This document shows, in pieces, positions 30,961-31,065 of a DNA stretch of 48,195 nt; the first letter of the stretch is position 1; each line of letters begins with the position of its first letter. The position numbers were made by a program, and so were the translations under genes. This DNA comes from Achromobacter pulmonis (GTDB lineage: Bacteria > Pseudomonadota > Gammaproteobacteria > Burkholderiales > Burkholderiaceae_B): contig NZ_CADIJV010000036.1 of the NCBI RefSeq assembly GCF_902859765.1, positions 1 to 48,195 of the forward strand, written 5' to 3'. The notes under the pieces were generated by a model, which saw only the letters and a program-made list of their open reading frames with translations, had not been told where the DNA came from and did no database searches.

Positions 30961-31002
30961 TTGACTCAGATCAACTGCGGGCGACCCTGCCCATGTTCGA
31001 AT
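30961..31002 (+). promoter_or_regulatory. FNR/ANR-type class II promoter of the N-ATPase operon
   Basis: TTGAC-TCAG-ATCAA (30961-30974) matches the FNR/ANR consensus TTGAT-N4-ATCAA at 9 of 10 positions. Exactly 22 bases later lies TCGAAT (30997-31002, 4 of 6 to TATAAT), which puts the box centre at about -41.5, the standard position for FNR activation. The expected start is at about 31009, some 57 bases before the atpD ATG. There is no sigma70 -35 element, as expected for an activator-dependent promoter. Confidence 0.62.
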
Positions 31003-31065
31003 CAATTGCATTAAGCGCCGAGCCGCACGTTACATCCCAATCGTAACGGATACAGGAAAGCAGGC

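Follow-up and report, generated by a model that had tools for sequence, protein, structure and literature searches.

Class II promoters that are activated by FNR or ANR are known from E. coli and Pseudomonas. The DNA region upstream of the atpD gene studied here shares with them a TTGAY-N4-RTCAA site, a distance of 22 bp between this site and a candidate -10 element, the absence of a -35 element and the presence of an FNR gene in the same genome. It differs from them in that the -10 element is weak, the site is a predicted one and the target is an N-ATPase operon. The promoter type is known; its link to N-ATPases was not met in the literature searched. A search for papers containing both 'N-ATPase' and 'FNR' as whole words returned none, in a collection that leaves most subscription journals outside its scope. 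A paper dealing with an FNR-type regulator of Gluconobacter may report control of the second ATPase.

With respect to the enzyme, a study on the N-type ATPase of Burkholderia pseudomallei (PMC5376962) describes an operon in which atpD and atpC also come first, and an enzyme that is likewise second to an F-type one. The c subunit has two carboxylates, and its Thr, Met and Tyr are spaced from the ion-binding Glu just as in the protein encoded here. The c ring of B. pseudomallei is a c17 ring, proton-coupled, and transports 5.7 ions per ATP; judging from its residues, the subunit c encoded here is likely to be proton-coupled as well. The system differs in the role proposed for it, which is acid survival. 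The abstract of that study describes the cellular functions of N-ATPases as 'largely unexplored', and in its main text there is no word starting with 'oxygen' or 'anaerob'.

Two reports relate N-ATPases to oxygen. Several N-ATPase subunits are higher in abundance at low oxygen in Nitrospira marina (excerpts of PMC8115632), and in Gluconobacter oxydans under oxygen limitation the Na+-type ATPase operon is upregulated 2- to 3-fold and the H+-type downregulated about 2-fold (excerpts of PMC6191907, citing a microarray study). Both excerpts describe an increase of the N-type operon, at the transcript or the protein level, when oxygen is low, and neither names a regulator or a binding site. FNR-type control of rotary ATPase genes is reported for FnrL of Dinoroseobacter shibae, but in that organism it is the F0F1 clusters that are described as repressed, through FnrL and DnrD (PMC5398030, in part). 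Salt did not raise the N-ATPase transcripts of Synechococcus sp. PCC 7002, although the authors considered the variability of their data too high to conclude firmly (PMC3468840, in part). The accessible text of three papers on Burkholderia at low oxygen (PMC9104464, PMC8191878 and PMC3759415) contains nothing on N-ATPase, and PMC4154653 includes no word starting with 'regulat', 'express' or 'promoter'.

The N-ATPase operon and its divergent neighbours

The window (the whole stretch of 48,195 nucleotides of Achromobacter pulmonis DNA that was analysed) contains, downstream of the predicted FNR-family box, an operon with the gene order atpDCQRBEFAG, assigned by family scans and, for atpR, by position (Table 1). 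When compared with the NCBI models for alternate F1F0 enzymes, the epsilon subunit exceeds the TIGR03166 cut-off, while the alpha, beta, a, b, c and gamma subunits stay below theirs. As most subunits fall below these cut-offs, it is by gene order and by the family matches that the operon is assigned to an N-ATPase. The genome also encodes a second, ordinary AtpD (G000:C3), 53% identical to the N-type AtpD.

Table 1. Predicted features of the N-ATPase promoter region, the operon and the divergent genes (window positions).
Feature	Position	Strand	Basis or remark
P-type cation ATPase	27472..30141	-	nearest calcium type, below NCBI cut-offs
202-aa protein	30148..30756	-	none found in family scans, no useful match
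FNR-family box TTGACTCAGATCAA	30961..30974	+	10/10 to TTGAYN4RTCAA; commonest palindrome upstream of atpD in the first set of relatives
Candidate -10, TCGAAT	30997..31002	+	22 bp past the box; preceded by TGT; weak, 4/6 (hexamer scan)
Predicted transcription start region	31008..31010	+	from the candidate -10
atpD, N-ATPase beta	31066..32529	+	ATP-synt_ab; best match TIGR03305 (alternate F1F0 beta), 617.5, below the cut-off of 752
atpC, epsilon (alternate type)	32526..32996	+	NF009981 and TIGR03166 above cut-off; end from ORF
atpQ, AtpZ/AtpI-like (ATPase_gene1)	32996..33274	+	PF09527; start predicted from translation
Small protein in atpR place	33271..33558	+	ORF, by position alone; start predicted
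atpB, subunit a	33558..34229	+	NF009955 above cut-off
atpE, subunit c	34239..34481	+	NF009998 above cut-off; Glu26 and Glu59-Thr-Met-x-x-Tyr
atpF, subunit b	34482..35243	+	PF00430 and NCBI family scan
atpA, alpha	35224..36765	+	NF009884 above cut-off
atpG, gamma	36765..37718	+	PF00231 over residues 77-352 of ORF 36543-37718; start approximate

To find N-ATPases, AtpB was chosen as the query because AtpD returned mostly ordinary F-type beta subunits (about 53%). N-type AtpB was found in one of 43 same-genus genomes, 40 of which reach a completeness of 90% or more with little contamination; it was sought and not found in the other 42. The best named relatives of the protein come from Bradyrhizobium (87-88%) and Castellaniella denitrificans (85%). 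Taking into account both this affiliation and the single occurrence among 43 genomes, the operon is accessory and has probably been transferred.

The divergent genes on the minus strand (25853-30756) include one whose product carries APH and AAA_33 domains. Relatives of this kinase-like protein occur in 3 of the 159 other N-ATPase loci, and relatives of the P-type ATPase in 5 of them (L072 at 47%, the others at about 30%).

A predicted FNR-family box and a candidate promoter

An earlier note on this DNA had claimed that an FNR box precedes atpD in the textbook geometry of a class II promoter. The box itself is borne out: TTGACTCAGATCAA matches the strict consensus TTGAT-N4-ATCAA at 9 of 10 fixed positions and the form TTGAYN4RTCAA at all 10, and it is the sole exact match to the latter in the 48-kb window. 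Exact sites number 31 in the 5.67 Mb of the whole genome, which corresponds to a chance of about 0.2% per 400 bp. The 22-base spacing to TCGAAT claimed in the note is exact in the sequence. The ATG of atpD is at 31066, with 91 bases between it and the box, where the note had given 92. Provided that TCGAAT is the -10 element, the box would be centred near -41.5, and the TGT ahead of TCGAAT is consistent with an extended -10. 'Textbook' is nevertheless an overstatement. TCGAAT matches TATAAT at only four of six positions, with a C at position 2 in place of the A that is the most conserved A of the -10 hexamer. That the promoter has no -35 of its own, as the note had it, agrees with a search of positions 30700-31120, in which no sigma-70-type promoter was found. 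The TTGACT of the box was considered as a -35 for TCGAAT and rejected, the two elements being 30 bp apart.

Two other readings of the box have to be weighed here. When up to one mismatch is allowed, the window contains five matches against 1.56 expected, which, together with the weak -10, would suit a chance match in an operon served by another promoter. Alternatively, the box lies within a 309-bp intergenic region between divergent ORFs, and it might mainly serve the genes for the 202-aa protein and the P-type ATPase, or act in both directions; against this, the minus strand has a separate weak -35/-10 pair at 30860. An outward inverted repeat, GTCAAT-N6-ATTGAC (30854-30871), overlaps this pair. 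Both readings are taken up again below, with the evidence from related loci.

Boxes before related atpD genes

We pooled 160 N-ATPase loci, namely the window, 80 named loci, 63 other genome stretches and 16 plasmid loci, the latter taken from 62 plasmid records with a match. The N-ATPase locus of genome G323 was left out, as its contig begins there. Thirteen of the 160 were dropped because atpD was missing, cut or weak, or because the upstream sequence was short, leaving 147 usable loci in 133 clusters. The dropped loci include two with an exact box, L035 (short upstream sequence) and L066 (weak atpD match, start unplaceable). The codon that aligns with AtpD residue 23 served as the anchor, and exact boxes were counted in the 400 bp before it.

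The earlier note had proposed scanning related upstream regions for conservation of the box, and its idea survived the scan: an exact box is found beside atpD in 34 of the 147 usable loci and in 28 of the 133 cluster representatives, against 14 of 2733 control windows drawn from other parts of these loci. Regions preceding other ORFs gave 13 of 660 (Fisher p 4e-14 versus atpD), a rate that exceeds that of the plain control windows, and dinucleotide shuffles of the 133 representatives gave a mean of 0.22 with a box and a maximum of 2. Near-matches at 9 of 10 positions are also in excess (16 representatives versus 4.4 in shuffled sequences, maximum 8). An initial scan had been confined to the usable named loci and to 316 bp of upstream sequence; it showed a box in 23 of 72, compared with 15 of 2494 control windows and an average of 0.045 after shuffling. 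In a motif-free count of 5-mer palindromes with one degenerate position and spacers of 0-10, TTGAY-N4 ranked first, with 28 representatives, the next distinct site reaching 10.

The distribution of the box is uneven. By source, it is present in the window (1/1), in 24 of 72 named loci, in 5 of 59 loci from other genomes and in 4 of 15 plasmid loci; by AtpD identity, in 30 of 96 loci at 57% or above and in 4 of 51 below 57%. Of the 17 usable loci whose titles name Burkholderia, Paraburkholderia, Caballeronia or Trinickia, 11 have it beside atpD. Loci L209 (Picosynechococcus) and L194 (Cereibacter) were searched and showed no exact box.

A later set, to which the same rule was applied, came from searches around G642, a genome that belongs to a different class of the phylum. 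Of its 33 loci, 32 could be used, and 27 counted as independent. The box occurs in 3 of the 27 independent loci (6 of 32 when near-copies are included), whereas control windows elsewhere gave 0 of 262 and shuffles 0.05. TANNNT stands at 21-22 bp from one of these three boxes, and the TTGAY-N4 palindrome is absent from the eight commonest of this set. Enrichment thus holds in the later set, at half the rate of the first one. When both sets are pooled, 31 of 160 representatives have a box.

We then considered the distance between the box and a -10-like element. Downstream of 31 representative boxes, TANNNT is located at 21 bp in ten cases and at 22 bp in two, and at any other offset in two at most. 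Twelve of 31 at 21-22 bp corresponds to p of about 1e-15 if the boxes are independent, but the twelve include four from closely related Caballeronia and one close pair, and so represent about eight lineages. The window is outside the twelve, its TCGAAT being weaker and lacking the TA start: as a -10 the putative element is weak, and relatives usually have TANNNT at 21 bp. In the direction away from atpD, the same 31 boxes show TANNNT twice at 21 bp and never at 22 bp. This asymmetry argues against a box that mainly serves the divergent genes or both directions, a reading that we find improbable.

The loci nearest to the window were inspected individually. In the nearest two, L036 and L032, a gene for a SpoIIAA-like protein precedes atpD, and the exact box is found before this gene; L031, L033 and L034 (one cluster, two genomes; L034 is from Bradyrhizobium sp. 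BTAi1) have it at atpD. L035, which was placed near the window by identity and not by the tree, has a box too, but was kept out of the counts because its sequence upstream of the anchor is only 263 bp long. Including the window, all seven nearest loci (L031-L036 being the other six) therefore have a box in the promoter region. An exact box also precedes an upstream co-directional ORF in L090 (alcohol dehydrogenase), L198 (acetyl-CoA hydrolase) and L182; with L036 and L032, boxes at such positions were found in 5 of 38 representatives with such an ORF, a figure that stands without a control. All five belong to the clustered loci that lack an exact box beside atpD.

A chance match would also agree with the 105 of 133 clustered loci that have no exact box beside atpD. 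Both the enrichment of the box and its fixed distance to the -10 in relatives speak against it, as do the seven nearest loci, and we regard coincidence as very improbable. On an AtpD tree of the 133 representatives, built by a quick method and with boxes beside atpD as the only state scored, the distribution of the box implies at least 20 changes, 11 of them forced by well-supported branches; shuffled labels gave 25.7, and one of 500 shuffles was as low. The box is clustered on the tree, yet it was gained or lost many times.

Other neighbours of N-ATPase loci are as follows. A gene for a PAS-domain histidine kinase lies just upstream of atpD in L064 (2017-3540), and one for a universal stress protein in L151 (1320-2174). 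Genes for arcD and a flavodoxin are near the N-ATPase on Paraburkholderia pOLGA1 (L200:1-739 and 2816-3328), and genes for acetate kinase and a bifunctional phosphate acetyltransferase in Sphingobium cloacae (L197:1-2148). An oleate hydratase gene adjoins atpG on two plasmids from different bacterial classes (L197:10112-11878 and L200:10159-11763). In Roseomonas sp. E05, a gene for a Crp/Fnr-family regulator is upstream of the N-ATPase operon (L094:2765-3463).

Candidate regulators and proposed control by oxygen

The genome encodes an FNR of 242 amino acids (G000:C17) with the cysteine motif CSTCMLGHVC, a distal cysteine and a recognition helix with LETVSR. In the PDB it matches FNR regulators best (E 4e-53), and its cysteines align with those of a solved FNR. 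The 30 other exact sites of the genome comprise 22 intergenic ones, five of them without a nearby ORF, and eight within ORFs, according to a simple ORF filter. Ten proteins encoded downstream of these sites were scanned. An NrdD-type ribonucleoside triphosphate reductase and AdhP pass the cut-offs; an iron-sulphur subunit is nearest to TtrB, just below that cut-off, and above the DsrO one; others resemble OmpW, ferredoxin-NADP reductase, PHA synthase, a copper P-type ATPase and two chemotaxis receptors, and one of the ten had no match. We take the genes behind the exact sites to be what an FNR regulon looks like.

The main rival of FNR is another regulator of the Crp/Fnr family, such as the NO-responsive DNR or the rhizobial FixK2, in which case the signal would be NO or another low-oxygen relay. 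The sequence of the box alone does not separate FNR from DNR or FixK. A second regulator encoded in the genome (G000:C7) has an E-x-x-S-R helix (AETLSR) and no cysteine motif; DNR (E 6.6e-10) and FixK2 are among the structures that it matches in the PDB. The closest named loci are in Bradyrhizobium, and Bradyrhizobium FixK2 recognises a motif of the TTGAY-N4-RTCAA type. On the other hand, an FNR with the cysteine motif is encoded in this genome and other sites in it precede genes of anaerobic metabolism, and we consider DNR or FixK2 unlikely to be what reads the box.

We therefore favour FNR as the regulator: the N-ATPase operon is probably under the control of a class II, FNR-dependent promoter that is on at low oxygen. 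The FNR/ANR control at low oxygen that the earlier note had claimed is supported by the enrichment of the box, its spacing in relatives and the FNR gene, within the limits set by the weak -10, by the majority of loci that have no exact box and by the 3 of 27 loci of the later set. When oxygen falls, FNR dimers with [4Fe-4S] clusters would form and bind positions 30961-30974, centred near -41.5. Bound FNR would then touch RNA polymerase and offset both the missing -35 and the weak TCGAAT, transcription would start near 31009 and continue through atpDCQRBEFAG, and at low oxygen the cell would have a second rotary ATPase alongside the F-type one.

What such a switch could bring to the cell may be considered by analogy with the wide rotor of B. 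pseudomallei. With its 17 c subunits and 5.7 ions per ATP, a rotor of this kind suits either ATP-driven ion pumping, the export role that the earlier note had suggested, or ATP synthesis from a low driving force, and both would fit low oxygen. As sites of this kind are found again before some of the related operons, the data suggest that some bacteria switch their N-ATPase on when oxygen runs low, and comparison of the loci supports extending the finding from a single promoter to a pattern shared by a portion of the N-ATPase operons. More tentatively, and with somewhat less than even confidence, N-ATPases of Proteobacteria might be viewed as low-oxygen gear. Boxes would be gained and lost often before mobile operons with which unrelated bacteria replace or supplement their F-type enzyme, the wide rotor keeping up membrane potential cheaply or making ATP at low proton-motive force. 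A low-oxygen promoter would tie together two so far isolated expression reports (PMC8115632 and PMC6191907, both in part) and would compete with the explanations based on salt and acid. A recurring promoter of the low-oxygen type would provide a concrete answer to the question of when and why bacteria use N-ATPases.
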